Shown piece by piece: positions 17,216 through 64,000 of a stretch of DNA of 64,000 nucleotides; the stretch's first letter is position 1, and each line of letters begins with the position of its first letter. The position numbers and the translations under genes were made by a program. Below the pieces are notes generated by a model. It was not told where the DNA came from, searched no databases, and saw only the letters and a list, made by a program, of their open reading frames with translations. Source of the DNA: Laccaria trichodermophora (taxonomy: Eukaryota > Basidiomycota > Agaricomycetes > Agaricales > Hydnangiaceae); contig JACTVC010000009.1 in the NCBI GenBank assembly GCA_018417955.1, forward strand, positions 1,116,001-1,180,000, read 5' to 3'.

Positions 17216-17257
17216 AATTTATAGGCATGGGATGCTCCAATCTCATGGGGGGGCTTT

Positions 17258-17470: not shown

Positions 17471-17571
17471 TGTCCCCCTTCCTGGGTCACTGGAACGCGC
17501 TAGCATGAAGTCGCATCACGCTAGCTTGACCCGATCTCTATCACGCATACCTCGTATATTCTCCGCTGCCA

Positions 17572-19463: not shown

Positions 19464-19471
19464 GTTTCATC

Positions 19472-32495: not shown

Positions 32496-32952
32496 AATTA
32501 TGTGCTTGCTTTCCATTTACTTTGCTTCGTATCCCCCTACATATCGTATTCAACTACCTCGAATTCTTTAAATACTGGTACTTAACTACCGTATATTGTT
32601 GATGTGTTTTTCTAAATTGGCTCAATAAATTTCTGGGCTTCAACTAAATTAGCAAAGTTGAGTGTGGTTGGGTCAGATATCTACATCTGCTTCATGCAGA
32701 TGATATGCCTAATTTGATTGCAAGATTTACACCCAGCTAATTATGCTTAATGCTCTAGCTATATTGTATATGATGACTTATTAGGTTACCTTAATATCTC
32801 ATAGACGTAGACGGATATCTTGTGGATATCCTTTTGTAACATTTGTAACAATACTGAAATACATCAAAGTAGTAGTAATAACTGCTAAGTTATAGTTTTC
32901 TACTGTATAACCGTTTATACTTACAAAGACCATGTTCACCGGTCAAGACATC
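32496..32952. other. Intergenic, AT-rich
   Basis: No gene. It has a likely transcript end for the AT-hook gene (AATAAATTTC near 32624). The sequence next to the Helitron end at 32953 would be the far flank of that insertion. Confidence 0.4.
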
Positions 32953-33053
32953 ACTTGTGGGTGTGGGCCAGTGCTTCGCATGGCATGTATGAGTCCTTCC
33001 CATGGACCTCCAATGCTGAAAAATATGTAGAGTAAGTTTTATTTAAAAAATGC

Positions 33054-33244
33054 ATATTTTAACATTTTCATTAACAATGGATGCAAGCCACATTAACTTG
33101 AATCAAATTAGTGGGAAGAGATTGTAAATAATGTTAAGTAAGAATGTCCAAGCAATTGTAAAATTAATTGAAATTTATTTACAATTCTTTATAATCAGTT
33201 GCTTCAAATCAATGTGGCTTGCATTCAATGTTATAAAAATATTA
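33054..33244. repeat. Imperfect inverted repeat near the Helitron 3' end
   Basis: The arms at 33054-33105 and 33200-33244 share AATGSATGCAAGCCACATT and about 25 flanking bases (ACTTGAA / TTCAAAT). It lies downstream of the Helitron stop codon, so it could fold in the 3' UTR or near the replication terminator. Confidence 0.65.
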
Positions 33245-33292
33245 ATCTAGAATTCTATTTTAATGTTAAATTTATTAAGACAAAGTTCTAAT

Positions 33293-39200: not shown

Positions 39201-41614
39201 GTAGGTTTGCAAGAACCAGTATAAATGAAAGCTAAAACTTCATCCATTTCCTCTATTGGAGGAGGTAATATATCATAAATCTTAGGTGTAGGATTAGAAA
39301 AAGAGATAGCATTGGCTCTCATTTTATGCATTCCTGAGGAGACTCTGACTAGGCATCTATTATGACGAACTCTAGCCACCAAAAGTTGTTCAGCAAATGA
39401 CAAGTCTAATAATTGAGGTGGAACTTTTCCTATCCATTTGCCATTTGCTAAGGCTAGCAGTGGCATCTTGCCTTTTGATACAGCTTTATAGCAAATCTGA
39501 CATATAGAGTCCAAATTACTGTCCAGTACTGGGCCTTCAATATCAGAGAGGGGATCCTTTGAACCTTGTCTTTCAACTTGGGTAACACCATCTTGAATCA
39601 GAATATCCAAGTTCAAGTTCATTTCTGAGAGCTTCTTGAGAGTTGAACTTGGTGTTAACTGACCACAAACTGCACATCCAGACTCCTCAAATTGATTTGG
39701 ATCTATATCTTCACAGAAATCTGTAAATATCTGATGCATTAATTTTTGGGAAGGAGCTGAAGGAGGAAATTCTGGGTTTAAGCCTTTATTTTGATATTTC
39801 TTTACCGCTTCTAAGTTTAAAACCTTATATTTTTCTTGATTTTTTTCTTGGTGTTTTTTGGCTGCTTCCAAATTACTGGCCTTGTATTTCTCTGGGCTTT
39901 TCTCTTGGTATTTCTTAACTGCATCCAAGTTGCTGGCCTTATATTTCTCCAGGCTTTTCTCTTGATGTTTTTTAACTGCATCCAAATGGCTGGCCTTATA
40001 TTTCTCTGGGCTTTTCTCTTGATGTTTTTTGACTGCTTCCAAGTGGCTGGCCTTATATTTCTCTGGGCTTCTCTCTTGGTGTTTTTGAACTGCCTCCAAG
40101 TTGCTAGCCTTGTATTTCTCTGGGCTTTTCTCTTGGTGTTTTTTAACTGCCTCCAAGTGGCTGGCCTTATATTTCTCTGGACTTTTTTCTTGGTATTTTT
40201 TTGACTTATTTAAATTAATAGCTTTATTTTTTTCTGTCTTGTCTTTCTCATCTATAAATTCAAATATTTCTACATATTCTTTACATGATTTACACCTGTG
40301 ACTTTCAATAATGCTCTGAATTTCTAAGCTTTTTGACTTGGAATGAATTTTGATGTTATGGCATTGAGCAATAAATTTTAAGTTAGGAATGCTCAAGTGG
40401 GAAATGAGCTCTGTAAGGGGCATCTTACAAAGTAAAGTTGGACTCTTGATACTCTTCAATGAATGGACTTCAGATTCAGGTACATAGTCTGAATATTTAT
40501 ACATCCCTCCTGGATTCACCTCATTTATAGCAAATGAAGAAAGCTTCTCAGCTGAAAATATACCAGCAGGGCCACCCCCCAATATTTCATTTTTAGTCAC
40601 CAAGTCATTATGTGAATTGAAACTTTGTGTTGGTTTAAACCCTGGAAGGTCCAGCTCCAAGAAGGATACTACAGATAAAGCAAGTATCATGATACACAAA
40701 TTTTTTGTGATATTTGTTGAGAACTTGAAATACTGCAAAGCTGAGACATGGTGGAATATTATCAAATACACAATGTAATTTGCAAAGTTTAAAATAGTAG
40801 AGCATCCACCAATTCTTTTCATAAGAGCAGCAAAGTCATGAGATCTCAATAAATTTCTTTTCAATTTCAAATCAAGTTCCTGGCATTTTACTGCAACAAG
40901 ATCTCTTTGAGAAATAATAGTAAATAATCTGAGAAGAGTCAAAAAAGCTCTGACATATAATTCCAAGAGTGGAGAAGATCTTAGATGCAACCACAACTTA
41001 TTAAGTTTTAAATCTAAACATTCAGAAAATGTGTAGTCACTTTTACATAGCTCAGGGCTAAGTTCAACACAAGTAGAAAAGCCATCATTTTTCAAAATCA
41101 AAGTTTCTGACCATGAGCTTTGTGCATTCCAGTGTAAGGGTGATACTCCTGATGTATGCCTATATATATCATCATATCTCATATTTGGGTAAGCTATGTC
41201 TGTTCCCTCAACCATAAATGGAAGAGCATATGTATTTTGCCTTTTTCTCTCAACCATAAATGGAAGAGCATATTTATTGTGCTTCTCAACCATGAATGGA
41301 AGAGTATTGAATGCCAAAAGGCCATGCCTCTCAACCATAAATGGAAGAGTATAGAGTGCCAAAAGGCCTTGCCTCTCAACCACAAATGGATGAGTATGTA
41401 ATTTATGTATTTTTCTCTCAACCATGTTGAATGGAAGAGGCTCAACCAAATGGTTGGCTGCCAAAGGGCTCGGATTGAGATCAATCACTATAGAGGGTGC
41501 CCAAGGGCTAGGGTTGTAATCAACCTCACTGGAATCAAGGTAGTTGCCAAAACTCTCTTGATCCCAGTGTAGAAGATCTAAAAGATTGCTCAGTCCTAGG
41601 TTACATATGATCAA
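33293..41614 (-). CDS. Helitron Rep-helicase polyprotein with C-terminal USP-like cysteine protease (2,773 aa)
   Basis: One uninterrupted frame. Residues about 61-139 carry five to six copies of LPFMVERxx. Residues about 472-608 carry about seven to nine copies of a 20-residue KSPEKYKAS.LEAVKKHQE repeat. A DUF6570-like/Helitron N domain follows. The HUH Rep nuclease shows LTLHLHMLLW (H1181, H1183) and the two-tyrosine motif YISDYVTK (Y1382, Y1386). A CNNCEKC and a C-rich segment lie between. The PIF1-type helicase has Walker A GGMGGTGKS (about 1905) and Walker B FLDEVSML (about 1980). The C terminus (about 2510-2773) has a Cys box NYSCAYDSLF (C2521), a CSDCGN..CGNCSG zinc pair and a His box GDNHFTS (H2719), the order seen in ubiquitin-specific proteases. 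Rep and helicase drive rolling-circle transposition; the protease role is unknown. All catalytic residues are present. Confidence 0.95.
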   Translation of the reverse strand: MIICNLGLSNLLDLLHWDQESFGNYLDSSEVDYNPSPWAPSIVIDLNPSPLAANHLVEPLPFNMVERKIHKLHTHPFVVERQGLLALYTLPFMVERHGLLAFNTLPFMVEKHNKYALPFMVERKRQNTYALPFMVEGTDIAYPNMRYDDIYRHTSGVSPLHWNAQSSWSETLILKNDGFSTCVELSPELCKSDYTFSECLDLKLNKLWLHLRSSPLLELYVRAFLTLLRLFTIISQRDLVAVKCQELDLKLKRNLLRSHDFAALMKRIGGCSTILNFANYIVYLIIFHHVSALQYFKFSTNITKNLCIMILALSVVSFLELDLPGFKPTQSFNSHNDLVTKNEILGGGPAGIFSAEKLSSFAINEVNPGGMYKYSDYVPESEVHSLKSIKSPTLLCKMPLTELISHLSIPNLKFIAQCHNIKIHSKSKSLEIQSIIESHRCKSCKEYVEIFEFIDEKDKTEKNKAINLNKSKKYQEKSPEKYKASHLEAVKKHQEKSPEKYKASNLEAVQKHQERSPEKYKASHLEAVKKHQEKSPEKYKASHLDAVKKHQEKSLEKYKASNLDAVKKYQEKSPEKYKASNLEAAKKHQEKNQEKYKVLNLEAVKKYQNKGLNPEFPPSAPSQKLMHQIFTDFCEDIDPNQFEESGCAVCGQLTPSSTLKKLSEMNLNLDILIQDGVTQVERQGSKDPLSDIEGPVLDSNLDSICQICYKAVSKGKMPLLALANGKWIGKVPPQLLDLSFAEQLLVARVRHNRCLVRVSSGMHKMRANAISFSNPTPKIYDILPPPIEEMDEVLAFIYTGSCKPTKSDFERTPLLVRHKKVAAALEWLKLNHCDYFDLEISYKNLREYPEDSPPVVVDYRESSSNKDPESTAINDIEEETGTETGQCPFVVHGLTGEEYSTKSLKALKAIALQHLTSNKKILAVGHAQEPESLYNNPQLFPQMFPWLFPYGLGGIGNTLQKGRLSEIKHKRHLLMYHDKRFQKDSHFALIAFNHEQIKQSTSSGYLLAETPKFDNISKRLMDVDVEVLSDLIQRMEDGERVKPETDEESLCFQLIKDLDHVSGRVQGSTTTKKYMRNEIWSLISFIGAPSWFITFSPADNMHPISLYFADTKEKFSPLLREYDERYKLIANNPVAGARFFHFITEMFIKHVLGVGEKHRGLYGDTEAFYATVEQQGRLTLHLHMLLWIKGALTPQEIRDKIMDPFSDFQKKIVEYLEAVHIGEFMTGSMDKVKHQVDIEKNQNKDYKDPTQTLPEAPPPFCDCNNCEKCENLSTWWQEYAKTVDDLILRSNVHDCGRNRSTSEKAAKRDRPTCMNKQGKCKARFPRPLYDQTEVDSNTGALNVKKGEELINTLSPPVTYLLRCNSDVTSLLSGTAIKAIVAYISDYVTKPGLKTYAIFDAIRSVYDRNSEMLGGSLERKEKARKIVTQASNCLTARMEIGGPMAALYLLGNPDHYTSHKFVVFYWKNFVREALKPFRSEEDLEKEIPEKLVLQKGKGEYVGFSSVHDYIYRPTIFEDKTLYEWVQMSARCKVANSFQEHDEITDSDDELDLIEKIEHVSTKVLPQLVDDSDSNGDELNINKNSTSIEADDSDDELISENRITYPFLRDHPLYKTHQAQFNEKKSNVVPNFVGGSLPRCDRGDREYYCATMLALFKPWRTGHDLKSEEDTWDETFNDYEFTVQQRQYMLNFNIRYECNDARDDFSAQQKKGDSEGIFPQWMSNETMLDLDELNAYDGAHFWDAEYDENDEENIPNKYTALGKYGRANQEQMNATKIAIKEAGWMDESPNGISEVDKKPIQPDILQSSSKWKASVDQKRQEELAQRNKNIPAQKNMKNQQIDHNENDVKIVDQSYLTKDFKANEKSAQRMIDKVVKKYSLNREQERAFRIVANHAVQHQTEQLKMYLGGMGGTGKSQVFKALIYFFQQRNESHRFIVLGPTGSSAALLNGSTYHSFLGVPMSGMGIRNEATSIAQVRARLDGVDYIFLDEVSMLSCHDMYKIASQLAKALNNFDKPYGGINMIFAGDFAQLPPVGGQSLYSHSVGTQVHSGLKPGGQEAAVGKALWHQVTTVVILRENMRQKTQTPQDASLRKALVNMRYGNCTAEDIKFLRTLQASKKPGRPNIASKEFRNVAIICGRHTQKDQINQMGCERFAEETGQKLTHFYSVDKWGKDADPANKTKWGKSKAATKSKHKSNEIDFDDQHQIWNVRHGSTEHFAGKLSLCLGMPVMIRNNDATELCITKGQEGFVVGWQAKKGPHGKRILDTLFVKLDKPSKTIQIPGLPENVVPLVKGTKTITCTFPSDLKESIERQQVWVLPNFAMTDYAAQGKTRPYNVVHLNSCHTHMSYYTCLSRSASAAGTIILQGFEPSIVTRGCAKYLRQELREQELLDEITRLRYEGSLPPCVVGYTCNSLIRNFQNWKGTAYVPEKTDTSLRWSESDPMDILPVVTDSPWQIIKRGKDKKAEQPKKASTFIPAKGSVAVKHKLDDDDEINIKKKSKKILKPKSSIKLGLQWDSINYSCAYDSLFVILYHIWNIDPLRWTTNFTEINQDYLGALAAGFNKVLEGTLTLENVRDELRHDLHNLDPIKFPMGKTGASVGQLTFEMLKYEKNNAVAEIVCSDCGNAYEVDDTLGYVLHASDPIPTSTLKWIGSIQKSSTEICGNCSGEMIEHVSYAEVPKIIILEYPYCNTKTSHKLKFVINGEEVLLSLRGIIYHGDNHFTSRVFSYEGEVWFHNGITTKNKCIEDGQLDDKSNNDLRYYEDQELVLAVYSQL

Positions 41615-42164
41615 GCTAAGGTCTTACCATAGTTTAAGAAAGAGGTGGCATAGAAATCCATAGGATTTAACTGGCAGAAAGCCAATGATGTGTTTTCTGG
41701 GTTAAATATATTAAATTTGAGAATATGCACTAAAAAGGGCAAGTTACATACCTTCTGGGCTCAGAATAGCCAGAGAACAGGGAGTTTGTTGATCTAGAAT
41801 ATAGAAAGATTAGCAGAGTACCTACAGAAATATAGAAATAGGCTTACATGGCCAAAAATGACCAAGTTCAGAGCTAACACCAGTATTTCCAGATCTGAGC
41901 ATGTTCCAGGTGTTGGAAGAGAACACAGAGGGCATAGAAGTGTAGCAGAGAAGGCCTAGAAGCCATAGCAAAAAGAATTGTAGCAGTAGCATAAGTGGTT
42001 GACTCAGAATGGAGTGAACAAGGTGCCAGCAAAGCAAGATGATGGTGGTTCAAGTTCAAAAGGGAAAGTTTACTATTGTTTATCAGAAGCTTTGAAGTAC
42101 CCAGGAAGTTTAGGGCAAGTCCACATTCCTTATGTGGGAACTTTTTCCCACAGTACATGAATTA
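41615..42164. promoter_or_regulatory. Helitron 5' leader
   Basis: Non-coding, upstream of the Rep-helicase ATG at 41612-41614. It should contain the promoter, but I see no site I can name. Confidence 0.35.
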
Positions 42165-42689
42165 TAGCCCCTTCTTATACATTTCTAAATGTACTGAAAT
42201 CATATAACCAGATGACTTTTTTATTGAGAAAAACATAAAAAAACATGAATAAATAGGTGTCTTTGCATATATCTCAGGAAAGAAGATAGCTAGTCACATT
42301 TTGTGACCACATTGAGAAATATAACAGCATGCTCTATAAAACTGTCACTAATTTCCTTTTTAGGTCAAATTTCCCACAGTACCAGAAACACAGCCTCTCA
42401 CTTAGCTTTATTAACAAGAATTGTAGCCCCTTTGCTTAGCTTTACAAATATATACTTGTGTTAGAGGCCATTGCAAGCATGGCAGAAACGAGTCCTCCTT
42501 TTTTTGCAAAGGCAATAGAAACCAATTTCTACTTTTTCTCCTTTTTTCTGTCTTTCTGGGTACATTTTTATCACAAACCAGTAAATCTTCCTATATAAGT
42601 CTTCTTCTGGATTCTAAACAAATTACCCCAGCATCATCACCATCAATAAAAAACATTTCTATGTTTTTCTTATTTTTTTCTTATTTTCT

Positions 42690-44260
42690 CATTATATGCA
42701 GGTAGATTACCATATTTGGAAATCTACCCTAGAGCCTGAAACTGTTACCCAACATCATTACTAACAATAAGCACCATCCTTCAATTTTCACAGATTTTAT
42801 GACTATTTTTAATGGATTACCATATTTGGATGTCTGCTCTATACCCTGAACACTTTAGCAAACTTATACTACAAAGTTTACTAATATACAATAAAAGACT
42901 GCAGATGTCAGACATAGACTACAAAGTTAGATTATCTCTACAACAGGAGCACTTTCAGTGTAGGGCTACAACTTCCATTTGTTGACTATTTTTGGTAACT
43001 GATCATGTGACAATCATCCCATCATCCCATTACCAATAGGCTGTAATAGACAAAGTTATTATTTGCTTGGTTTTCTCCAGTTTTTGGTCAAAGTAGATGA
43101 TATTTTCTTTTTTGGTATGGACTCTGAAGGTAGTGCCTGACATTCTACATACCATTCAAACTTTCTTTTTTTTTTCAATTTTTCCACTATATTCCAGCAA
43201 TTTTTGGATCTATTACCATATTTGGAGCTGGACCCTTGACCCTGACAACATTACCAAACATTATCGCAGCAATGAGCACCATCCACCATTTTTTTCTGAT
43301 TTTTTGCCCATTTTCTGGCTATTCTTTGTTATATTACCATATTTGGAACTAGACTCTGGACCCTGACAATGTTACCCAATGATATCTAAGCACCATCCTC
43401 CATTTCTTTCTGATTTTATAACAGTTTTCTGGCTTTTTTTTGGATATATTACCATATATAGAACTAGACCCTGACAAGATTACCCAATGTTATCACTGCA
43501 GTGGGCACCATCCCCCATTTTTTTCTGATTTTCTAGCTATTTTCTGGCTATTTTTGGGTCTATATTACTCTATTTGGAACTAGACTCTGGACTCTGACAA
43601 TGTTACCCAAGGTTATCACTGGCAATAAGCACCATCCCTCATTTCTTTCTGATTTTCTGGCTATTTTCTAGCTATCTCTGGTTATATTACCATGATGAGA
43701 ATAGCCTCTGAACCTTGACAACATTACCCAAGGTTATCACCACTATCCTCCATTTTTTTCTCTGATTTTCTGGCTATTGTTGGCTATATTACCATATTTG
43801 GAAATATACCCTGGACCCTGAAAACAACCTCCAACATCATTACCAGCAGTAAGCAGCACCCTCAATTTTTTTCTGATTTTTCTGCTATTTTATTGCTATT
43901 TTACATCTGAAAATGCACACATTTTCTTATTTGAAAATGTGCCCTGAACCCTGAAAACAAACTCCAACATCATTACCAGACTACCCTCAATTTCTTGTGA
44001 TTTTTGTGATTTTTCTGCTAATTTATTGCTATTTTACATCTGGAAATGCGCACATTTCCTTATTTAGAAATGTGCCCTGAACCCTGAAAACAAACTCCAA
44101 CATTATTACCAGACTACCCTCAATTTTTTGTGATTTTTGTGATTTTTCTGCTATTTTATTGCTATTTTACATCTGAAAATGCGCACATTTCCTTATTTAG
44201 AAATGCGCCCTGGACCCTGAAAACGACCCCCGACGTCGCCACCAACAGTGAGCAACACCC
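42690..44260. repeat. ~115-bp AT-rich tandem array (left arm; mirrored at 51754-53324)
   Basis: About a dozen units with ATTACCATATTTGGAACTAG, ACYCTGGACCCTGACAAYRTT, ACCCAAYRTTATCACYRSMA and TTTTTTCTGATTTTCTGGCT. Units of the same design make up the bodies of the family A copies. Confidence 0.85.
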
Positions 44261-44338
44261 TAAGTTCATTGTCGCAAGCAGCAAGCCCTTTACAGCTAAT
44301 ATAATGTGTATAGGCTGGATTTGTAAGCATCGGAAATC

Positions 44339-44416
44339 TCCGAAAATGACGTACTTCCCTTGCGGGTTACCTTCAAAATCAAAGGTAGCCCGCAAGGGAA
44401 GTACGTCATTTTCGGA
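44339..44416. repeat. 78-bp near-perfect hairpin (mirrored at 51598-51675)
   Basis: TCCGAAAATGACGTACTTCC and CTTGCGGGTTACCTT pair with the reverse complement downstream, leaving an 8-nt loop and one G-T type mismatch, about 35 bp of stem. AGCAT/ATGCT just outside extends it after a short bulge. Confidence 0.9.
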
Positions 44417-44459
44417 TGCTTCCGAAGACTCAACGTCAACTTCTGCTTGCTAAGTACAA

Positions 44460-44890
44460 ACCCTGTTGTCATCGTCTTGGTCAATCCAAACGTGACACAG
44501 AGCATTCTGTGATGCCACATCCATTGTGTTGTTGTCGTCTTGGTTAATCCAAATGCAACACACATAATGCCACATCCAAAGCAGGTGGTGTGCTGTACAC
44601 TTTGCTGTCTTGCACTCTTTCTTGTCTTGGCCAGTCCAAACGATTTGTGCAATGTATCTATCTACCACATCTTGTCTGTTTCCTTTGCATGCTTGTCATT
44701 GTCTTGGCCAGTCCAAACAATTCGAGTGCCACATGTCTACCATATTCATCTCACAGCAATATTTCATTTGGGTGGGGATCTGGTCAACTTGTAATGCGTG
44801 TCTTGACTCTTGCTCATGTGGCTGTGTGTAGTTTGTTGGTGGAATGGTACATTGCCATCTTGGCTAGTCCAAACACAATGAAAGTTCTCT
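44460..44890. repeat. Dispersed CTTGGYCAGTCCAAACR repeats (mirrored at 51124-51554)
   Basis: The core CTTGGYYARTCCAAAC recurs at about 44477, 44548, 44634, 44703 and 44861, each followed by a GTG or CAC-rich stretch and CCACATS. No gene. Confidence 0.7.
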
Positions 44891-44899
44891 GTCAACGCG

Positions 44900-47040
44900 G
44901 CTTCGATTTTCATGATCTTGAGCTCGTTTGGATAGCCCCACACTCTGTGAAGATGCTCCCAAAAACCGTTTACAAAACGGTTGAGGTTGCGGGGAGCTAG
45001 GTCAGTTTCCATTTGCGCTTTTTTGCCCTTATGCTCACAACTCCCCAGAACCTCAATCTGCGTCGGTTTTTGTGATCAATGACTCGTTCGGATACCCCTA
45101 CACTCCGCTAAGACGCTCCCAAAAACCGCTTACAAAACGGTTAAGGTCTCGTCGAGCGAGGTCAGTTTCTATTATCACTTTTTTGCCCTTATGCTCACAA
45201 CTCCCCAGGACCTCAATCTGTATCGATTTTTGTGATTAAGGACTTGTTCGGATACCCGTACACTCCGCTAAGACGCTCCCCCAAACCGCTTACAAAACGG
45301 TTGAGGTCTCGTGGAGCTAGGTCAGTTTCTATTATCGCTTTTTTGCCCTTATGCTCACAACTCCTCAGAACCTCAATCTGCTTCGATTTTCGCGATCGAG
45401 GACTCGTTCGGATACCCCTACACTCCGCTAAGACGCTCCCCAAAACAGCTTACAAAATGGTTAAGGTCTCGTCGAGCGAGGTCAGTTTCTATTATCGCTT
45501 TTTTGCCCTTGTGCTCACAACTCCCCAGAACCTCAATCTGCATCGAGTTTTGTGATCAAGGACTCGTTCGGATACCCCTACACTCCGCTAAGACGCTCCC
45601 AAAAACCGCTTACAAACTGGTTAAGGTCTCGTGGAGCTAGGTAGTTTCTATTATCGCTTTTTTGCCCTTATGCTCACAACTCCCCAGAACCTCAATCTGC
45701 GCCGATTTTTGTGATCAAGGACTCGTTCGGATACCCCTACACTCCGCTAAGACGCTTCCAAAAACCGCTTACAAAACGGTTAAGGTCTCGTCGAGCGAGG
45801 TCAGTTTCTATTATCGCTTTTTTGCCCTTGTGCTCACAACTCCCCAGAACCTCAATCTGCGTCGAGTTTTGTGATCAAGGACTCGTTCGGATACCCGTAC
45901 ACTCCGCTAAGACGCTCCCCCAAACCGCTTACAAAACGGTTGAGGTCTTGTGGAGCTAGGTCAGTTTCTATTATCGCTTTTTTGCCCTTATGCTCACAAC
46001 TCCTCAGAACCTCAATCTGCTTCGATTTTCGCGATCGAGGACTCGTTCGGATACCCCTACACTCCGCTAAGACGCTCCCCAAAACAGCTTACAAAATGGT
46101 TAAGGTCTCGTCGAGCGAGGTCAGTTTCTATTATCGCTTTTTTGCCCTTGTGCTCACAACTCCCCAGAACCTCAATCTGCGTCGAGTTTTGTGATCAAGG
46201 ACTCGTTCGGATACCCCTACACTCCGCTAAGACGCTCCCCAAAACAGCTTACAAACTGGTTAAGGTCTCGTGGAGCTAGGTAGTTTCTATTATCGCTTTT
46301 TTGCCCTTGTGCTCACAACTCCCCAGAACCTCAATCTGCGCCGATTTTTGTGATCAAGGACTCGTTCGGATACCCCTACACTCCGCTGAGACGCTCCCAA
46401 AAACTGCTTACAAAAACGGTTAAGGTCTTGTGGAGCTAGGTCAGTTTCCATTTTCGCTCTTTTGCCCTTATGCTCACAACTCCCCAGGACCTCAATCTGC
46501 TTCAATTTCTGCGATCGAGGACTCAATCAGATACCCCTACACTCCGTGAAGACGCTCCCGAAAGCCGCGTACCAAACGCTTGAGGTCTCATGGAGCTAGG
46601 TAAGTTTGTCTTTTCGCTCCTTTTCCCCTTGTGCTGACAACTTCCCAGGACCTCAATCTGCTTCGATTTTTGTGATCAAGCACTCGTTCGGTTACCCCCA
46701 CACTCCGTGAAGACGCTCCCCAAAACCGCTTATAAAACGGTTGAGGTCTCGTGGAGCTAGGTGAGTGTGTATTTTCGCTTTTTTGCCTATCTGCTCAAAA
46801 CTCCCCAGGGCCTCAATCTGCTTCATTTTCCATGGTCGAGGGTTCGTTTGGATACCCCCACACTCCGTGAAGACGCTCCCCAAAACCGCTTACAAAACGG
46901 TTGAGGTCTCGTGGAGCTAGGTCAGTGTGTATTTTCGCTTTTTTGCCCATATGCTCACAACTCCCCAGGGCCTCAATATGCCCCATTTTCTGTGATCGAG
47001 GGCTTGTTCGGATACCCACACACTTCCTAAAAATATGCCA
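44900..47040. repeat. 159-bp minisatellite, ~13 units (mirrored at 48974-51114)
   Basis: The unit contains GGACTCGTTCGGATACCCCT, ACACTCCGCTAAGACGCTCC, CGCTTACAAAACGGTTRAGG, TCGCTTTTTTGCCCTTRTGC and CACAACTCCCCAGAACCTCA. CGGTTTTGTAAGCGG-type sequence makes a short hairpin in each unit (CCGCTTACAAAACGG). Units towards 47040 drift in sequence, while central units are nearly identical. The array has fixed phase with open frames on both strands, which explains the many spurious ORFs. Confidence 0.95.
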
Positions 47041-47200
47041 CAAAAATTGTCATGTCCTTAATCATTATATCTTCAATATAAAGAACTATTGTTACATAAA
47101 TGTGAAATAGAGGCAATATATTCATATGTTAGAGTCTGACAGTCAAATAGGGCAGTACCTCAGCTACCACCTACATTAATGACAACTTGTATAGGACTAA

Positions 47201-47571
47201 AAGCAAGTGATAGGTAAGGAATAGTAAAGAAAACTAGCAAAGCTGTCAATGCTAAGCAGGCAGCTCATCGTGGGAAGAAATCACTTTCATAGGAGAAAGT
47301 CAAATTTCAGCGTTACCGCGCTGAAAAAAGTCTCGATATCCTGGGTAATAAATGAGTCTCTTCATAAACTCAGAGGACTCGTAAAAAGCAAGTGATAACT
47401 AAGAAATAGTAGAGTAGACTGGCAAAGTCGTCAATGCTGAGCAGGCAGCTGATCGTGGGAAGAAATCACTTTCGTGGGAGAAAGTCAAATTTCAGCGTTA
47501 CCGCGCTGAAAAATGTCTCGAGATCCTGGGGAATAAACGAGTCTCTTCGTAAACTCAGAGGACTCGTAATA
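47201..47571 (-). repeat. Tandem duplication of the family B 5' end (185 + 186 bp; mirrored at 48443-48813)
   Basis: The unit 47386-47571 and the unit 47201-47385 both end in GTAAACTCAGAGGACTCGTAA (or ATAAACTC) and contain TTTCAGCG..CGCTGAAA and AAGCAAGTGATA. The element thus has two 5' ends in a row. The inner one has one changed loop base and several point changes. Confidence 0.85.
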
Positions 47572-47776
47572 GGAGATCTGGTCTATGCGGGCGTATTGCC
47601 CATGCCTTCTCCTCTTGAATGGGGTGAATTCATTGAAAAGGTGTTGAAGGGCGCGTTGGATGCTATAACCATGCTTGGGCTAATTGATGAGGACACGACA
47701 GTGCCACAGGCATTTGTGGAACTTGATGAGTTTGTCAACTGTGTGTTGACTGCAGAAGAAAAGGCTGCCATGACAT
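47571..47776 (+). pseudogene. Displaced and inverted 3' coding fragment of the gene at 53562
   Basis: The plus frame reads GDLVYAGVLPMPSPLEWGEF, IEKVLKGALDAITMLGLIDE and FVNCVLTAEEKAAMT, then meets the 5' end of the autonomous Helitron at 47777. The minus-strand gene at 53562-55189 ends in NIGSLTAILI exactly at the right palindrome arm. Joined, they give GSLTAILI-GDLVYAGV, matching a G-L-x-A-x-L-x(3)-D-x-x-Y-A-G-V pattern I know from repeated Agaricomycete proteins. The fragment is therefore the C terminus of that gene, now on the opposite strand and 6 kb away. Confidence 0.8.
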
Positions 47777-48442
47777 ATTATGAGTCCTTACGAGTTTACG
47801 AGTAAGACTCATTCTTTATCAACTGAGGACTTAGGCAAAATTTTCATTCATTCATTGATTGATTCATTGATTTACCTTTCATCACCGCGGGAACTTTTTC
47901 CCTTAAACAAAAAAGCAGCCATAAAATTGGGGGAAATAACTAGAAAATTGGGAAAAAATATGTAAAAATCAGAATATTGATCAGTAAGTTGGGGAGGCTG
48001 TGTTCAGGGTCAATATCTAAATATAGAAATGAGGTAAAAACTCCCAGAAAATGAGAAAAAATACCCAAAAATAAAAGTGATATTCTTTGTTGCCATGGTG
48101 TTGAAGGGGCTGTGTTCAGGGTCCATATCTAAAAATAGAGACAGCACAAAAAAGCACTTGGAGCAAATAGCTGGACATTAAAGAAAACATAAAGAAACTT
48201 GTAGACAACATTTTCTGGCTATATTTGGGCAGATTGCCATATTTGGAAGTGTACACTGGACCCTGAACACAGCCTCTACAATAGTATAGCAACATTAAAG
48301 ACCAGAAATGTGATTATATCATCTGACTAGCCTTCTTTCTTATGCAGATATTGGTCAAAATACATGACTATTTTCAAAAAGTGTCCAATTTTTTCAGTAT
48401 TTTGTGTTTTTCTCAATAAGGAATGATCTGTGTGACATTATT
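47777..48442 (+). mobile_element. 5' terminal part of the autonomous Helitron, inverted
   Basis: ATTATGAGTCCTTACGAGTT at 47777 with the family A hairpin, then GGACTTAGGCAAAATTTTCA, ACCTTTCATCACCGCGGGAA and AT repeats, stopping at GACATTATT (48442). In the intact 1,164-bp copies this point is followed by TATACATATTTGTAAAG, which is what remains at the left side of the left arm (CTTTACAAATAT, up to 42452, opposite strand). Confidence 0.8.
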
Positions 48443-51400
48443 TATTACGAGTCCTCTGAGTTTACGAAGAGACTCGTTTATTCCCCAGGATCTCGAGACA
48501 TTTTTCAGCGCGGTAACGCTGAAATTTGACTTTCTCCCACGAAAGTGATTTCTTCCCACGATCAGCTGCCTGCTCAGCATTGACGACTTTGCCAGTCTAC
48601 TCTACTATTTCTTAGTTATCACTTGCTTTTTACGAGTCCTCTGAGTTTATGAAGAGACTCATTTATTACCCAGGATATCGAGACTTTTTTCAGCGCGGTA
48701 ACGCTGAAATTTGACTTTCTCCTATGAAAGTGATTTCTTCCCACGATGAGCTGCCTGCTTAGCATTGACAGCTTTGCTAGTTTTCTTTACTATTCCTTAC
48801 CTATCACTTGCTTTTAGTCCTATACAAGTTGTCATTAATGTAGGTGGTAGCTGAGGTACTGCCCTATTTGACTGTCAGACTCTAACATATGAATATATTG
48901 CCTCTATTTCACATTTATGTAACAATAGTTCTTTATATTGAAGATATAATGATTAAGGACATGACAATTTTTGTGGCATATTTTTAGGAAGTGTGTGGGT
49001 ATCCGAACAAGCCCTCGATCACAGAAAATGGGGCATATTGAGGCCCTGGGGAGTTGTGAGCATATGGGCAAAAAAGCGAAAATACACACTGACCTAGCTC
49101 CACGAGACCTCAACCGTTTTGTAAGCGGTTTTGGGGAGCGTCTTCACGGAGTGTGGGGGTATCCAAACGAACCCTCGACCATGGAAAATGAAGCAGATTG
49201 AGGCCCTGGGGAGTTTTGAGCAGATAGGCAAAAAAGCGAAAATACACACTCACCTAGCTCCACGAGACCTCAACCGTTTTATAAGCGGTTTTGGGGAGCG
49301 TCTTCACGGAGTGTGGGGGTAACCGAACGAGTGCTTGATCACAAAAATCGAAGCAGATTGAGGTCCTGGGAAGTTGTCAGCACAAGGGGAAAAGGAGCGA
49401 AAAGACAAACTTACCTAGCTCCATGAGACCTCAAGCGTTTGGTACGCGGCTTTCGGGAGCGTCTTCACGGAGTGTAGGGGTATCTGATTGAGTCCTCGAT
49501 CGCAGAAATTGAAGCAGATTGAGGTCCTGGGGAGTTGTGAGCATAAGGGCAAAAGAGCGAAAATGGAAACTGACCTAGCTCCACAAGACCTTAACCGTTT
49601 TTGTAAGCAGTTTTTGGGAGCGTCTCAGCGGAGTGTAGGGGTATCCGAACGAGTCCTTGATCACAAAAATCGGCGCAGATTGAGGTTCTGGGGAGTTGTG
49701 AGCACAAGGGCAAAAAAGCGATAATAGAAACTACCTAGCTCCACGAGACCTTAACCAGTTTGTAAGCTGTTTTGGGGAGCGTCTTAGCGGAGTGTAGGGG
49801 TATCCGAACGAGTCCTTGATCACAAAACTCGACGCAGATTGAGGTTCTGGGGAGTTGTGAGCACAAGGGCAAAAAAGCGATAATAGAAACTGACCTCGCT
49901 CGACGAGACCTTAACCATTTTGTAAGCTGTTTTGGGGAGCGTCTTAGCGGAGTGTAGGGGTATCCGAACGAGTCCTCGATCGCGAAAATCGAAGCAGATT
50001 GAGGTTCTGAGGAGTTGTGAGCATAAGGGCAAAAAAGCGATAATAGAAACTGACCTAGCTCCACAAGACCTCAACCGTTTTGTAAGCGGTTTGGGGGAGC
50101 GTCTTAGCGGAGTGTACGGGTATCCGAACGAGTCCTTGATCACAAAACTCGACGCAGATTGAGGTTCTGGGGAGTTGTGAGCACAAGGGCAAAAAAGCGA
50201 TAATAGAAACTGACCTCGCTCGACGAGACCTTAACCGTTTTGTAAGCGGTTTTTGGAAGCGTCTTAGCGGAGTGTAGGGGTATCCGAACGAGTCCTTGAT
50301 CACAAAAATCGGCGCAGATTGAGGTTCTGGGGAGTTGTGAGCATAAGGGCAAAAAAGCGATAATAGAAACTACCTAGCTCCACGAGACCTTAACCAGTTT
50401 GTAAGCGGTTTTTGGGAGCGTCTTAGCGGAGTGTAGGGGTATCCGAACGAGTCCTTGATCACAAAACTCGATGCAGATTGAGGTTCTGGGGAGTTGTGAG
50501 CACAAGGGCAAAAAAGCGATAATAGAAACTGACCTCGCTCGACGAGACCTTAACCATTTTGTAAGCTGTTTTGGGGAGCGTCTTAGCGGAGTGTAGGGGT
50601 ATCCGAACGAGTCCTCGATCGCGAAAATCGAAGCAGATTGAGGTTCTGAGGAGTTGTGAGCATAAGGGCAAAAAAGCGATAATAGAAACTGACCTAGCTC
50701 CACGAGACCTCAACCGTTTTGTAAGCGGTTTGGGGGAGCGTCTTAGCGGAGTGTACGGGTATCCGAACAAGTCCTTAATCACAAAAATCGATACAGATTG
50801 AGGTCCTGGGGAGTTGTGAGCATAAGGGCAAAAAAGTGATAATAGAAACTGACCTCGCTCGACGAGACCTTAACCGTTTTGTAAGCGGTTTTTGGGAGCG
50901 TCTTAGCGGAGTGTAGGGGTATCCGAACGAGTCATTGATCACAAAAACCGACGCAGATTGAGGTTCTGGGGAGTTGTGAGCATAAGGGCAAAAAAGCGCA
51001 AATGGAAACTGACCTAGCTCCCCGCAACCTCAACCGTTTTGTAAACGGTTTTTGGGAGCATCTTCACAGAGTGTGGGGCTATCCAAACGAGCTCAAGATC
51101 ATGAAAATCGAAGCCGCGTTGACAGAGAACTTTCATTGTGTTTGGACTAGCCAAGATGGCAATGTACCATTCCACCAACAAACTACACACAGCCACATGA
51201 GCAAGAGTCAAGACACGCATTACAAGTTGACCAGATCCCCACCCAAATGAAATATTGCTGTGAGATGAATATGGTAGACATGTGGCACTCGAATTGTTTG
51301 GACTGGCCAAGACAATGACAAGCATGCAAAGGAAACAGACAAGATGTGGTAGATAGATACATTGCACAAATCGTTTGGACTGGCCAAGACAAGAAAGAGT

Positions 51401-53561
51401 GCAAGACAGCAAAGTGTACAGCACACCACCTGCTTTGGATGTGGCATTATGTGTGTTGCATTTGGATTAACCAAGACGACAACAACACAATGGATGTGGC
51501 ATCACAGAATGCTCTGTGTCACGTTTGGATTGACCAAGACGATGACAACAGGGTTTGTACTTAGCAAGCAGAAGTTGACGTTGAGTCTTCGGAAGCATCC
51601 GAAAATGACGTACTTCCCTTGCGGGCTACCTTTGATTTTGAAGGTAACCCGCAAGGGAAGTACGTCATTTTCGGAGATTTCCGATGCTTACAAATCCAGC
51701 CTATACACATTATATTAGCTGTAAAGGGCTTGCTGCTTGCGACAATGAACTTAGGGTGTTGCTCACTGTTGGTGGCGACGTCGGGGGTCGTTTTCAGGGT
51801 CCAGGGCGCATTTCTAAATAAGGAAATGTGCGCATTTTCAGATGTAAAATAGCAATAAAATAGCAGAAAAATCACAAAAATCACAAAAAATTGAGGGTAG
51901 TCTGGTAATAATGTTGGAGTTTGTTTTCAGGGTTCAGGGCACATTTCTAAATAAGGAAATGTGCGCATTTCCAGATGTAAAATAGCAATAAATTAGCAGA
52001 AAAATCACAAAAATCACAAGAAATTGAGGGTAGTCTGGTAATGATGTTGGAGTTTGTTTTCAGGGTTCAGGGCACATTTTCAAATAAGAAAATGTGTGCA
52101 TTTTCAGATGTAAAATAGCAATAAAATAGCAGAAAAATCAGAAAAAAATTGAGGGTGCTGCTTACTGCTGGTAATGATGTTGGAGGTTGTTTTCAGGGTC
52201 CAGGGTATATTTCCAAATATGGTAATATAGCCAACAATAGCCAGAAAATCAGAGAAAAAAATGGAGGATAGTGGTGATAACCTTGGGTAATGTTGTCAAG
52301 GTTCAGAGGCTATTCTCATCATGGTAATATAACCAGAGATAGCTAGAAAATAGCCAGAAAATCAGAAAGAAATGAGGGATGGTGCTTATTGCCAGTGATA
52401 ACCTTGGGTAACATTGTCAGAGTCCAGAGTCTAGTTCCAAATAGAGTAATATAGACCCAAAAATAGCCAGAAAATAGCTAGAAAATCAGAAAAAAATGGG
52501 GGATGGTGCCCACTGCAGTGATAACATTGGGTAATCTTGTCAGGGTCTAGTTCTATATATGGTAATATATCCAAAAAAAAGCCAGAAAACTGTTATAAAA
52601 TCAGAAAGAAATGGAGGATGGTGCTTAGATATCATTGGGTAACATTGTCAGGGTCCAGAGTCTAGTTCCAAATATGGTAATATAACAAAGAATAGCCAGA
52701 AAATGGGCAAAAAATCAGAAAAAAATGGTGGATGGTGCTCATTGCTGCGATAATGTTTGGTAATGTTGTCAGGGTCAAGGGTCCAGCTCCAAATATGGTA
52801 ATAGATCCAAAAATTGCTGGAATATAGTGGAAAAATTGAAAAAAAAAAGAAAGTTTGAATGGTATGTAGAATGTCAGGCACTACCTTCAGAGTCCATACC
52901 AAAAAAGAAAATATCATCTACTTTGACCAAAAACTGGAGAAAACCAAGCAAATAATAACTTTGTCTATTACAGCCTATTGGTAATGGGATGATGGGATGA
53001 TTGTCACATGATCAGTTACCAAAAATAGTCAACAAATGGAAGTTGTAGCCCTACACTGAAAGTGCTCCTGTTGTAGAGATAATCTAACTTTGTAGTCTAT
53101 GTCTGACATCTGCAGTCTTTTATTGTATATTAGTAAACTTTGTAGTATAAGTTTGCTAAAGTGTTCAGGGTATAGAGCAGACATCCAAATATGGTAATCC
53201 ATTAAAAATAGTCATAAAATCTGTGAAAATTGAAGGATGGTGCTTATTGTTAGTAATGATGTTGGGTAACAGTTTCAGGCTCTAGGGTAGATTTCCAAAT
53301 ATGGTAATCTACCTGCATATAATGAGAAAATAAGAAAAAAATAAGAAAAACATAGAAATGTTTTTTATTGATGGTGATGATGCTGGGGTAATTTGTTTAG
53401 AATCCAGAAGAAGACTTATATAGGAAGATTTACTGGTTTGTGATAAAAATGTACCCAGAAAGACAGAAAAAAGGAGAAAAAGTAGAAATTGGTTTCTATT
53501 GCCTTTGCAAAAAAAGGAGGACTCGTTTCTGCCATGCTTGCAATGGCCTCTAACACAAGTA
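48443..53561 (+). mobile_element. Non-autonomous Helitron2-like element, family B, right palindrome arm (5.12 kb)
   Basis: Mirror image of 42453-47571 about position 48007. All open frames and every stretch I compared are identical. The 5' end is at 48443 and the 3' end CCTCTAACACAAGT ends at 53560-53561. It interrupts the hypothetical gene that resumes at 53562. Confidence 0.85.
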
Positions 53562-56100
53562 ATAAGAATGGCTGTTAGAGAGCCTATATTGACAAACACC
53601 TTCTTTGGAGTTGGTTTGTTGCCGCCCTTTGTTCCTTTCTTTTTTCTAGACCTTCCACCATTGACTGAAGACTGAAGCAAGAACTTATAGACCTCGGTGA
53701 GACTCAGATCCTTCTTATTGATCAGGGGTTCCCATAAATGTCTCTTTTCCCAGTATTCTGGAACACGATCAATGCTTCGATCGCCTTGCAAAGACCCATA
53801 AGCAGATTTGATGATGAAATAGCTTTCTGCTTTGTTTTCTTTGAAGGCATTCCAATCATCCAGATTCTCAAAATGACGTCCATCATCCCGAGCAAACGGT
53901 GAGCCGTAGAAAACTCCACGGAAGCATAAGACGTTCCAAAAGCCGATTGATGTCCTGAGCCATTCTGGATCATCGTATATCATATTTCGTGAACGAATAC
54001 GGGTGGGAGCATGTTCCCTGTATGGCATAAATTTATCCGGTGCCCTTGCTATTGTTCGGAGAAATTTGTTGGAACTGTCCACATGTGCAGAGACTCCATC
54101 CGTGAGCAGTGGCATTCCTCGCCTCAGAAAGTCAACAAATATCATTCTTCTGTCATCTTTTGACTGGGGAAGGGATGCGATGTCCACGTTAGATGTTTTG
54201 GACTTGGTTGACTTCTTGGCTTCTATGAGTTTTATTTCAGATCGCGCCTGGGTAAATTTGAGTTGTGCCTTCTCAATAGCCTTGGTATCAATCTGGCTCT
54301 CGGAGAACCAATCCATAACAACGCTGTGCAGAAAGTCCAACTTCTCTGAGAGCCAGGAATGTGGGGTTGCTAATGGATGCTGTTTCAAACGAAGTTCAAA
54401 CTCTGACCATATTGGATGCTTTTCAGTATGATTATTGTATCCTTGATTGTTGCCCTGCAATGCGACAAGTGGGCTTTGAAATGCAGTCCAAACAGGCTCT
54501 AGCAAAAAAATGGAGTGTTGCTCAATAGCCTTCCTAATAGTAGCAATGAACATCCACTGAGCAATCGCTTTTGGGGTCACTGGAAATTGCAGCCATGCAC
54601 GAATAATATCCACAGCTGCAGTTGCTAGTTGCTCTCTTTGAGCGTTGGCATCGTATACCAAGTGTCTGACTTTGTGATTGTGTGTTACAGCCTCCTCTAG
54701 ATGAGGGAGGTATTTGCTAGAAGAGAAGGGTATGACCTTGCTAGAGTGTGTCCCACTGGTGTAAAATCCGTTGAGATCTTTGACCAGCCTATGCACCCAA
54801 GTAGGTTCGTAGCCTGCTGGTGTGGAAATTAGATTCACCGAAGGCTTGGTATCAATTGCCTCCTGGACTATGGTCTGAACCCAAGTGTAAGGCGCTGAAA
54901 CACCTGTCATATAAGTCAATCTGTAGGTATAGAGCTCCATGGTTGAAAGGTGAATGGAATTCAAGAGAAGAGCATGTTTTGGCCATATTTTTGCAATGTT
55001 TTGGGGATGGTCTGAAGCCCATGGAGAGTCGCTTAATTTTCGAACAGTGCGTTCTATACTGATAGAGTTGGCCATCAATGCCATTCGGTTTACTTGTTCT
55101 TCCAAACGTAATGAAGCGAGAGATCCCAGGAAATGGTCAGCGCAGATGGCAATTGCATTGATGTTAATAGAACCCAAGAAGTCATCCAAGGGACTGATAT
55201 GTTCTGTAATCTATTAGTATTCTTCTCTCATCAGAGTCAGTGACAGTGTTACCTGTTAGTCCATCATCTTCACTTTCCAAGTCTATCTCACTTTCTCCTT
55301 CACTATCGTATGTGTACTTATCTTGAGAGGGTCCTTCATCATCCAAGGATTCTTCATCATCCAAGGGTTCTTCATCATCCAAGGGTTCTTCATCATCCAT
55401 GGGTTCTTCATCATCCATGGGTTCTTCATCATCCATGGGTTCTTCATCATCCAAGGCCTCCTCATCAACCCCAGACCCTTCATAATCTAGATCCCAGGGC
55501 ACTTCATCCTCTAACTCATCATCTGTAAAAAAACAAATCAGATAAGAGTTTAGTTGTATTTACTATACTAACCATTATAATCAGCAGAAGATGCATTTGC
55601 TTTAGGTGAGTCCAAATCCATCTGATCATCTTGATCTTCATTCCCATCTTGACTGTCTGAAAGATCTATCGTTAGCCACCCTTTAGTCTGATTTGACTGA
55701 ACCAACCTTCTCCTCCAGAAGAGTATTTGGTACGTTTTCTCTTTCTGGTGCTTCGGCCATTCTTCTCCCGGTTTGATGATTGTGCATGAGTGCTTTGAGC
55801 TTCCAGCTTTCGTCGTGTGACTGTCTCTAACATTGCATCTCATCAACTGATGTGGTATGTTAAACTTTACCCTCTCACTACTTACCTTGATGAAGATGTT
55901 GATGCAATAAACTCATGCTGTCAATTGTGATCCCATCAATTCGTTTTTTTCTTGCTAGCCTTGCACCAATACCTATAGTATCTCAGTAAACCTGTTAAAT
56001 AAATAAGAAGAACCACTTACGTTGAAGCTCTCGCTCTCGGTTTTGACCCTCATTCTTGTTTTTCTTACTGGAGCCCCCACCCACATCTGCGACTATGAAT
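53562..56100 (-). pseudogene. Hypothetical protein gene interrupted at its 3' end by the palindrome
   Basis: The main exon runs from about 55187 to 53562 and encodes about 540 residues before running into the arm: MDDFLGSININAIAICADHF, TWVHRLVKDLNGFYTSGTHS, FLRRGMPLLTDGVSAHVDSS, AYGSLQGDRSIDRVPEYWEK, then a basic linker (NGGRSRKKKGTKGGNKPTPK) and NIGSLTAILI. Upstream exons on the same strand include an acidic repeat exon (55255-55520), 55575-55845 (KTYQILFWRRRLVQSNQTKG .. DGNEDQDDQMDLDSP) and micro-exons near 55930-56090 (ARLARKKRIDGI, SSKKNKNEGQNREREL). The missing C terminus is at 47571-47776. The frame past 53562 is element sequence and not protein. No known domain; it resembles a lineage-expanded mushroom family. 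Confidence 0.65.
55330..55465 (-). repeat. 15-bp coding repeat (DDEEP) in an acidic exon
   Basis: Eight head-to-tail copies of GATGATGAAGAAYCC-type units encode MDDEEP/LDDEEP. The repeat keeps the frame, and the same exon continues into DSEGESEIDLESEDDG. Confidence 0.85.
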
Positions 56101-56156
56101 AAGTGTGAAATGTATATGGTAAGACACTCACGTTTTGGCCTATTGGCTTCAGTATC

Positions 56157-58315
56157 TCAGTTTGTCATATCTGTGTAGTCCTTGACATGGCCATACTGGG
56201 ATGGTATAAACTTGGCCATGTTGGCCTTGTGGTCGATCCAATCCATGTGGATCTTTTTGCGGATATATGCAGCTTTGACCGATGGATCCATCTGGTCTTC
56301 GTTGACCTCCCCAGGTAAAACAGGATCAGAGACTGAACCGTCTGGTGCTTCAGGCCAAGGTTCAGCAGGTATAGTTTTTGTAGTATCTTGCATGGTAAAT
56401 GAAGATGTAAATTTCGCCTGGTCTATTCGTACCCCCATTGATGATGGAAGCTGACGAACAATATAGGCAGATATTTGGAGCAGGCCCCGCACCACAAAGT
56501 TGAATAATGATTTATTCTCCATAAGGACCAAACCGTCCCGAACAAAGTTGGCTTCCCTTGTTATCTCCCCTTTATTGGAGCTAGATTTTCTCAGTTTTCT
56601 GTGACAGATGTTAATGTTTGTTACTCACAGCAATGATGTCGCCTCTGTTGACAATTTGAACAGTTGTCCAAACATACTGGCAAACCCAATAGAGTATTGA
56701 CCAGCTCCAGAAAGCATGAAACGGGGTGAGTACAGAACAGCATTAATTCTATACAGATTCTTCTTCAACTCAATGCCACGTCCCAGGATGATTGGCGAAC
56801 CCCCATGTCTGTAGAGCCCATTGAATATGGCCAAATAAAAGCGAGCCATCTTGACATAGAGAAAATTGTTTAGAACAAAAAATCTGCCCATTTCTGTTCC
56901 ACCTGTTTCTGGAACGTTAGTGTTTGACATCATGCAGGTATATCCTCCAGGATCATCTCCATCATCACGGCCCTGCATTTGTCCAAAGATCCCCATGCCC
57001 ACCAAAGCAGTGTCTACAACATTGAAGTATAAATAGTTGTAGTAAAATAACTGAGACACTTACCAAAACGTTTCTCCCAAAGTATTGCAGGCGAAATGTT
57101 CAACTGTAGGGCTTGAAAGTAACAGTTATCTTCAACTCCCAGTCTTGGTATGTTGGAAGCAGATGTGTAGCGTTGGTACAGCTCTTGTATGTGATTTGGA
57201 AGGCAAATTTTCATTGCAAGAGCTCCAATTTCACTGTGTAACTAGAAATCCTGTTAAGCAGCAGGAATAGCTGAACAAAATAACAGTACCTTGATAAATC
57301 TCTTTCTGAACTTAAGTTGTTCATCCATAAACTCCAAAATTTTTCCGAACCAGTGGGGACTCCACATTGCACGGGAATGTTGGGTTGTAGATGCCATGGG
57401 ATAGCAACGAGTTCCATTGATTCCAACTGCACCAGTCCTTTCAAACCACGTTCCCCCTCTCAATACTCCATTTTCATCACGGGTTGGTGGATCAAGAGTA
57501 GCTTCTTCTTCTGGGCCAATCAGATCCGCTTGTAAGTCGTCAAATGCTTTGATTTGTTCTTCAGTCATCATCTTTGCTCTATTTCATAATCAGACGATGA
57601 TTTTTGTGTGGATGTGCAGAAACGTACCCATCCAGTATACAGACATTCAAGACGTCCTGCATCCAGTCAAGACGTGTCAGGGGCGTGGAAGCATATAGAG
57701 CAACCCCAGGTGGCACTTCCAATGATCCTATGTATAAATTTTAAGAGGTTGATTTGCATTCAGCACAGACTGTATGCACCAAGTTCATCCATTAATGAGT
57801 CAGGTCCAATTGGAACTGACAAGGTCTCTTCAAATTCAAATCTCTTCTTTTGTTCCTTTGCCGAAGTGTTGACAATGTATACCCAGGTCTCGTTTACATA
57901 TCTGGATGCATCGGGCATGATTTCATTGAGTGCGATGTGTGGATGAGGAGTTTGTAAACGGTAGACGTAGTAGAAGCGAACATCTCGCCGCTCTAAGATG
58001 ATGAGATCTGCATCTGGGACAACATACTGTTCGTCGATTGGCCCATTTTTTTTGCATGAATTCCTTTCCATCTAGTGGATAACGTGAACCTGTGCCACAG
58101 CTTGATGCATGAAAGCTGATTGTGACGTTCTGTGAATCTTCTGGTAAATAAGTTTCTTCAGCTTCATTAAGAAGAAGCTCTTGATCGATATCCTGTGCTA
58201 GAAGTGTGCCATCCGACATTGGAATTGATAGAACAGACGTCGATGAGCGAGGTACACGATGAAGCCTTATCAGAGCTGCCTGAGAGATGCCCGAGACATT
58301 AGAGGCATTAGCCAA
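56157..58315 (-). pseudogene. Hypothetical multi-exon gene with a frameshift
   Basis: Read on the minus strand: 58315-58055 (SQAALIRLHRVPRSSTSVLS, NEAEETYLPEDSQNVTISFH), then the frame changes at a run of eight T (58046-58053) and continues in 58050-57760 (DADLIILERRDVRFYYVYRL, MPDASRYVNETWVYIVNTSA). Further exons are 57700-57600, 57571-57290 (GINGTRCYPMASTTQHSRAM, WFGKILEFMDEQLKFRKRF), 57240-57065, 57015-56630 (CMMSNTNVPETGGTEMGRFF, IFNGLYRHGGSPIILGRGIE) and 56590-56160 (KAAYIRKKIHMDWIDHKANM). The homopolymer site could be a sequencing error. No ATG begins the first frame; it starts within 10 bp of the 80-bp palindrome. Function unknown. It faces the same way as, and directly precedes, the gene at 53562. 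Confidence 0.6.
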
Positions 58316-63729: not shown

Positions 63730-64000
63730 CACTTCCAAATATGGCAATCTGCCCAAATATAGCCAGAAAATGTTGTCTACAAGTTTCTTTATGTTTTCTT
63801 TAATGTCCAGCTATTTGCTCCAAGTGCTTTTTTGTGCTGTCTCTATTTTTAGATATGGACCCTGAACACAGCCCCTTCAACACCATGGCAACAAAGAATA
63901 TCACTTTTATTTTTGGGTATTTTTTCTCATTTTCTGGGAGTTTTTACCTCATTTCTATATTTAGATATTGACCCTGAACACAGCCTCCCCAACTTACTGA
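63730..64000 (-). mobile_element. Truncated Helitron body, continues beyond the window
   Basis: This matches the reverse complement of about 47990-48255 (CTTCCAAATATGGCAATCTG, TTTATGTTTTCTTTAATGTC, CCTGAACACAGCCCCTTCAA). It abuts the 5' end of the previous copy with no spacer and runs off the window. Confidence 0.7.

Follow-up and report, generated by a model that had tools for sequence, protein, structure and literature searches.

A short interval lying inverted between two opposed copies of a Helitron2-like element in Laccaria trichodermophora

An interval of 877 bp in contig JACTVC010000009.1 of the L. trichodermophora assembly lies, as assembled, in the reverse of its ancestral orientation, between two identical copies of a transposable element, here called E, that point in opposite directions. 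One copy interrupts a gene and the other interrupts a 10-kb Helitron, H, which itself lies within that gene. The inversion is best explained by homologous exchange between the two copies of E, and this is considered the probable cause. All positions refer to the window, by which is meant the whole stretch of 64,000 nucleotides that was analysed. The features are as follows.

31648..32952, minus strand: third piece of the gene region, on the far side of H, matching the C11 paralog at 95% over 1315 bp
32953..42453, minus strand: body of H, which with the 667 bp in the spacer totals 10168 bp
42454..47568, minus strand: left copy of E, hairpin (5') end at 47568 and CACAAGT (3') end at 42454
47569..48445: spacer of 877 bp, which the join comparisons show to be reversed with respect to the sequence on either side
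47569..47778, plus strand: gene exon piece of 210 bp (IGDLVYAGV..AAMTY), running up to the insertion of H; the other parts of the gene lie on the minus strand
47779..48445, plus strand: hairpin (5') end of H, 667 bp; H continues further left, on the minus strand
48446..53560, plus strand: right copy of E, the same sequence as the left copy in the opposite orientation, hairpin end at 48446
53561..57774, minus strand: upstream part of the gene, broken by E and ending ..NIGSLTAILI

Orientation of the spacer

The original order of the gene was the upstream part (from 53561 rightwards), the exon piece that is now in the spacer, H, and then the rest. The presence of the third piece beyond H places H inside the gene, and the corresponding empty site is exact in both the C11 and the C12 paralogs, with no target duplication. 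The upstream part resembles the C11 paralog as far as 56745 and a second copy, on C77, as far as 57774, and the exon piece in the spacer is 97-99% identical to the C11 and C12 paralogs. A scan of two stretches of the gene returned no Pfam match at a threshold of 0.01. Eleven homologous proteins were found in public data (38-92% identity), one of them named from Laccaria amethystina. The 667 bp that form the hairpin end of H have copies elsewhere at 99.6-100%.

The orientation of the spacer was examined with four 200-bp probes, one for each possible join and each taking 100 bp from either side. These were compared with 44 of the 50 loci that had been fetched, the six loci from the site itself being excluded. 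The probe that joins the left flank to the reversed spacer gave 43 matches, 33 of them running across the join. These correspond to 23 distinct places on nine contigs, eight at 99% identity or above, three at 96-97% and 12 at 89-92%, and one of the 23 lies inside the window near 62977. When the left flank was joined to the spacer as assembled there were 35 matches among the 44 loci, none of which crossed the join. On the other side, the gene joined to the spacer in the order expected of a flip gave two matches and both crossed the join (C11 at 94.5%, C12 at 99%); the gene joined to the reversed spacer, which is the arrangement in the assembly, gave 40 matches in the same 44 loci with none across the join. 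The loci had mostly been fetched with queries from the site or nearby and are hence selected relatives, and choosing loci by kinship cannot produce joins in one order only, so that no bias between join orders arises from it. Chance is not a credible cause of the pattern.

The protein evidence concerns the gene break. Nine of the 11 homologous proteins were read across this point and eight of them are unbroken, showing NIGSLTAILIIGDLVYAGV or a near variant, while the ninth (P0008) stops ahead of the break. Among the unbroken homologues P0006 and P0007 are almost one protein and P0010 reads NVGELTAILIIGDLVYGG. The interval is thus inverted relative to the ancestral order, this order being taken from paralogs and homologs, not from alleles. 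Judged on sequence comparison, the inversion of the spacer in the assembly is confirmed as real and is cleanly shown.

These results uphold the reading given in the first-pass annotation, which had described an 871-bp spacer inverted relative to both of its neighbours. The joins bear this out and refine the bounds to 877 bp (47569-48445). It had also been proposed that the gene continues from NIGSLTAILI to GDLVYAGV, a continuation that is unbroken in the C11 and C12 paralogs and in those eight of nine homologous proteins, and that the Helitron body continues at the far edge of the spacer, as the 23 places with an unbroken join to the reversed spacer now demonstrate. The suggestion that one flip would mend both junctions agrees with the join tests, and the two protein pieces, whose separation in paralogs would have spoken against this reading, proved to be contiguous there.

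The elements E and H

The inverted arms as first delimited (42453-47571 and 48443-53561) are 5119 nt each, 100% complementary with no differences, and lie 871 nt apart. Comparison with empty sites narrows them to 42454-47568 and 48446-53560, that is 5115 bp each, and each arm is one copy of a single transposable element. In the gene, E lies between ..TTATT and ATAGGAG.., and the insertion is precise and without target duplication, as determined from the empty sites in C11 and C12. In H it lies between ..ACAAATATAT and ATAAATAATG.., again precisely and without target duplication, the empty sites here being the copies of H. E in H is therefore younger than H itself.

A 160-bp unit is repeated about 13 times in an array within E, at 44844-47063 in the left copy and at the mirrored position in the right one. 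The hairpin end is doubled (47199-47568, and its mirror), consisting of two 185-bp units that are 90% alike, with a terminal hairpin in each. Copies of E elsewhere vary in end-to-end span, for example 4159 bp for C13:91769-95927 against 6257 bp for C67:49972-56228, while the two arms at this site are identical. Relatives of E were sought in the genome: its outer 2.5 kb yielded at least 112 matching stretches when 40 of 815 candidates had been scored, and its inner 541 bp yielded at least 40 when 40 of 113 had been. The CACAAGT end has the same bases in six of the eight loci compared, two of these six being the arms described here; the exceptions are L029, which does not have this end, and L032, in which the first bases are different. 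Of 12 loci, 11 have the hairpin end and L045 does not. No Rep/helicase frame in E appears in the list of open reading frames of the window, and E would accordingly be non-autonomous.

H contains an open frame at 33293-41614 (2773 aa) with matches to DUF6570, Helitron_like_N and PIF1. The last two score above the curated cut-offs, giving a Rep and a PIF1-like helicase in one protein. The H-type hairpin end has 122 matches across the genome (55 forward, 67 reverse), and a control search with the reversed pattern gave none.

E and H share several features at their termini. Both have asymmetric terminal inverted repeats of which the 3' copy lies inside the end (10 bp long and 34 bp in for E, 11 bp long and 35 bp in for H). 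The sequence of this repeat is ACGAGTCCTC in E and TATGAGTCCTT in H, so that it is paired within each element and differs between the two, and the hairpin loop GAGTTTACGA is common to both. The 5' hairpins of E and H are predicted to fold as single strands at -6.4 and -6.0 kcal/mol (z -2.79 and -2.94), and only 2 and 3 of 200 shuffles, respectively, fold as well. In the orientation of the element a T flanks the hairpin end of E in all 11 readable loci out of 12 (L045 being unreadable), and the base beyond the CACAAGT end varies among the six of eight loci that could be read there. These features match those described for Helitron2-type elements, and on this terminal evidence E and H are assigned as Helitron2-like.

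A further type of element, seen at L036 and L037, has an E-type hairpin end but is different in the rest of its sequence. It lies hairpin-to-hairpin with a copy of E at C39 and at C13, at distances of about 0.3 and 1.0 kb. These two places were considered as recurrent hairpin-to-hairpin pairs of E and were rejected as such, since the partner belongs to another type of element and has only 122-123 bp in common, at about 84%.

Origin of the inversion

It is proposed that the gene would have received the 10-kb Helitron H, that E would have inserted twice in opposite orientations, once in H and, earlier or later than H, once in the gene, 877 bp apart, and that homologous exchange between the long inverted copies of E would then have turned the 877 bp around. 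The position of H in the gene, the two precise and opposite insertions of E and the flip in the assembly are established. That the flip is also present in the organism, beyond the assembly alone, and that exchange caused it, we infer. Exchange between long identical inverted copies inverts the interval between them and needs nothing else. Under this model the flip would be later than both insertions of E, and an exchange inside the arms predicts that the inner flanks are swapped and the outer ones kept. This is the arrangement found, with the outer ends of the arms retaining their ancestral flanks and the inner ends having swapped theirs, and it supports exchange. The mending of both junctions by one flip also counts for it, and identity over 5119 bp provides ample length for homologous exchange. 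Among the points against it, two insertions 877 bp apart require either a short-range hop or luck in a region rich in E, and the absence of any difference between the arms would also be expected if one consensus had been used for both. The identity of the arms may derive from a common immediate donor, from a short-range hop or from conversion; identity of the arms and of their arrays is to be expected if there was one donor or if one arm converted the other.

The second of these points leads to the assembly itself. It is conceivable, though on balance unlikely, that both copies of E are real and that the 877 bp between them were placed in the wrong orientation, as with identical 5.1-kb arms any read that falls short of a whole arm cannot orient the spacer. 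That the opposite orientation is ancestral at both junctions is also how such an error would look. The assembly, however, comprises 59.0 Mb in 77 contigs, one of them of 4.78 Mb, with the site in a contig of 1.5 Mb, and many near-identical Helitron copies have been placed apart in it. This contiguity and separate placing suggest reads long enough to span a 5.1-kb arm, and such reads would probably exceed the arms at this site. The same contig moreover contains two further near-identical inverted Helitron pairs, with shorter arms, and in both the spacer is in its ancestral orientation.

These two pairs, P1 and P2, are inverted H-type pairs with their hairpin ends facing inwards as in E. P1 (15834-16997 and 19845-21008) has identical arms of 1164 bp around a spacer of 2847 bp, and inspection by eye showed it to be contiguous with its flanks at five paralogous sites, the left edge in C19, C12 and C76 and the right edge in C77 and C38. 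P2 (62591-65828 and 76667-79904 in window coordinates, and thus mostly beyond the window) has arms of 3238 bp at 99.97% identity around a spacer of 10.8 kb; its right edge is contiguous, again by eye, with the 160-bp array of E, and its left edge is contiguous in one locus, L032. Both spacers are in their ancestral orientation, so that one of three tested pairs is flipped and the idea that all inverted pairs are flipped can be discarded. Flipping is thus no general feature of such pairs here, the method is able to return an unflipped result, and spacers of this kind are not routinely inverted by the assembly. The arms of P1 and P2 are shorter and easier for an assembler, so that a pair with arms of equal length would be the stronger control. 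P1 and P2 show, too, that some pairs have not been turned by exchange; frequent exchange is neither proved nor excluded by them.

Some further observations were made on repeats in this region. The spacer of P1 (within 15834-21008) contains a reverse-transcriptase frame. Five repeats of at least 99% identity and at least 700 bp occur within 120 kb, all inverted and none direct; in two of these cases the repeats probably form the termini of one element. P3 and P4 are better interpreted as one element each, bounded by long terminal inverted repeats, than as pairs. At C77:1210825-1216905 (L012, L013) and C77:1226433-1231902 (L014) there are two elements that carry long terminal inverted repeats, read CACTTCAGTCACC at their outer ends and show, by eye, apparent 7-bp target duplications (ttgacat and agcttga). 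The stretch that runs from 62591-64000 on to C77:1181828 (L009) has three successive hairpin ends on one strand over 3.2 kb from an H-type CACAAGT end, as if new 5' ends had been gained stepwise or by nesting, and has a near-identical inverted copy about 11 kb away.

The unflipped pairs also bear on another possible origin, in which the second copy of E and the inversion arose in one step, either because an intramolecular move of E duplicated it inversely and flipped the interval or through template switching by a polymerase. A single event would account for the presence of a second, oppositely oriented copy, for arms that are identical down to the 160-bp array, and for the flipped spacer. Replicative transposons of the Tn3 and Mu kind do duplicate themselves in inverse orientation while turning the DNA between the copies. 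In the usual model of rolling-circle transposition, on the other hand, flanks are not exchanged and a move should not invert the interval, and P1 and P2, as near-identical inverted Helitron pairs that are unflipped, indicate that such pairs form without inversion. Template switching between the arms of inverted repeats is reported in yeast, in the part of that study available, to homogenise the arms and invert the spacer (PMC8604942), but this concerns short repeats which 5 kb far exceeds. A one-step origin is for these reasons regarded as improbable. The broader proposition, that a Helitron2-like element making a local hop on one chromosome can carry out a one-step duplicative inversion, leaving two identical inverted copies with the DNA between them turned, is likewise doubtful; were it true, a rolling-circle element would be doing what replicative cut-and-join transposons are otherwise known for.

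The first-pass annotation had named exchange between the arms and a choice of orientation by the assembler as possible causes, and these stand as the two leading explanations. Its further idea of a switch that can toggle finds no support. Inverted repeats around a short segment do allow physical flipping, but E occupies both breakpoints whichever way the spacer lies, so that toggling would restore neither the gene nor H. As assembled, E splits the gene and the exon piece runs the wrong way; flipping the spacer back would leave E in place, and H interrupts the gene as well. The spacer itself holds only 70 exon codons and the end of a Helitron. To go by the DNA itself, a 5.1-kb element inside the gene and inside the Helitron would leave no intact product either way, and a working product limited to one orientation was not found. 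A functional inversion switch maintained for toggling is thus very improbable indeed, and the flip is not expected to serve any function.

In the assembly this site is a base-exact micro-inversion bounded by Helitrons and partly ordered by nesting, with the gene, H, and E in H in succession and a flip that needs both copies of E. If the inversion is confirmed in reads, the locus offers a ready assay for the recombination rate of long inverted Helitron copies in a fungus. If it proves to be an assembly error, it is a clean case of identical inverted copies misleading an assembly.

Comparison with known systems

A structural parallel for the elements is found in the non-canonical Helitrons of Helitron2 type from Fusarium oxysporum, for which the available part of the description gives terminal inverted repeats that are asymmetric, the 3' repeat lying some 20-40 bp inside the end, a 5' hairpin and, for two subgroups, a preferred T/A insertion site (PMC5148889). 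As far as that part goes, E and H are alike in their asymmetric, inset terminal repeats and 5' hairpin, and differ in their termini, which are TACGAGTCCTC..CACAAGT in E and TATGAGTCCTT..CACAAGT in H; E differs also in having a 160-bp array and no transposase. Among basidiomycetes, HELPO1 and HELPO2 of Pleurotus ostreatus are described, in the portion of the paper available, as combining Rep and helicase in a single frame, leaving no target duplication, ending in T[C/G] and CTRR (CTTG in HELPO2) and inserting at AT, with allelic copies of different length and with satellite repeats inside one subfamily (PMC4289320). The elements at this site resemble these accounts as basidiomycete Helitrons with a one-frame Rep and helicase, no target duplication and differences in length that may be linked to satellite repeats, and differ from them in the ends of E and H. 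Helitron-derived tandem repeats of 154 bp are reported in the accessible text on Drosophila virilis (PMC12910113), and the 160-bp units of E are similar by description, in a different organism, as an array of about 150-160 bp inside a Helitron.

A limited look at the open literature on Helitrons, covering parts of the texts, found no inversion bounded by two Helitron copies; the inversions mentioned in the parts available of PMC10462019 and PMC12910113 are tied to other elements or to none. The event described here is a new example of a known general kind.

The element Galileo reportedly lies in oppositely oriented copies at both breakpoints of an inverted segment. Inversions in Drosophila are attributed to ectopic exchange between inverted copies of this transposon in the part of the study available (PMC2775673). 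The present site is like Galileo in having opposite copies of one element at both breakpoints of the inverted segment. It is unlike it in that the element is Helitron2-like, the organism is a fungus, the segment is shorter than 1 kb and the other orientation is read from paralogs alone. The site is ordinary in kind and unusually clean in detail.
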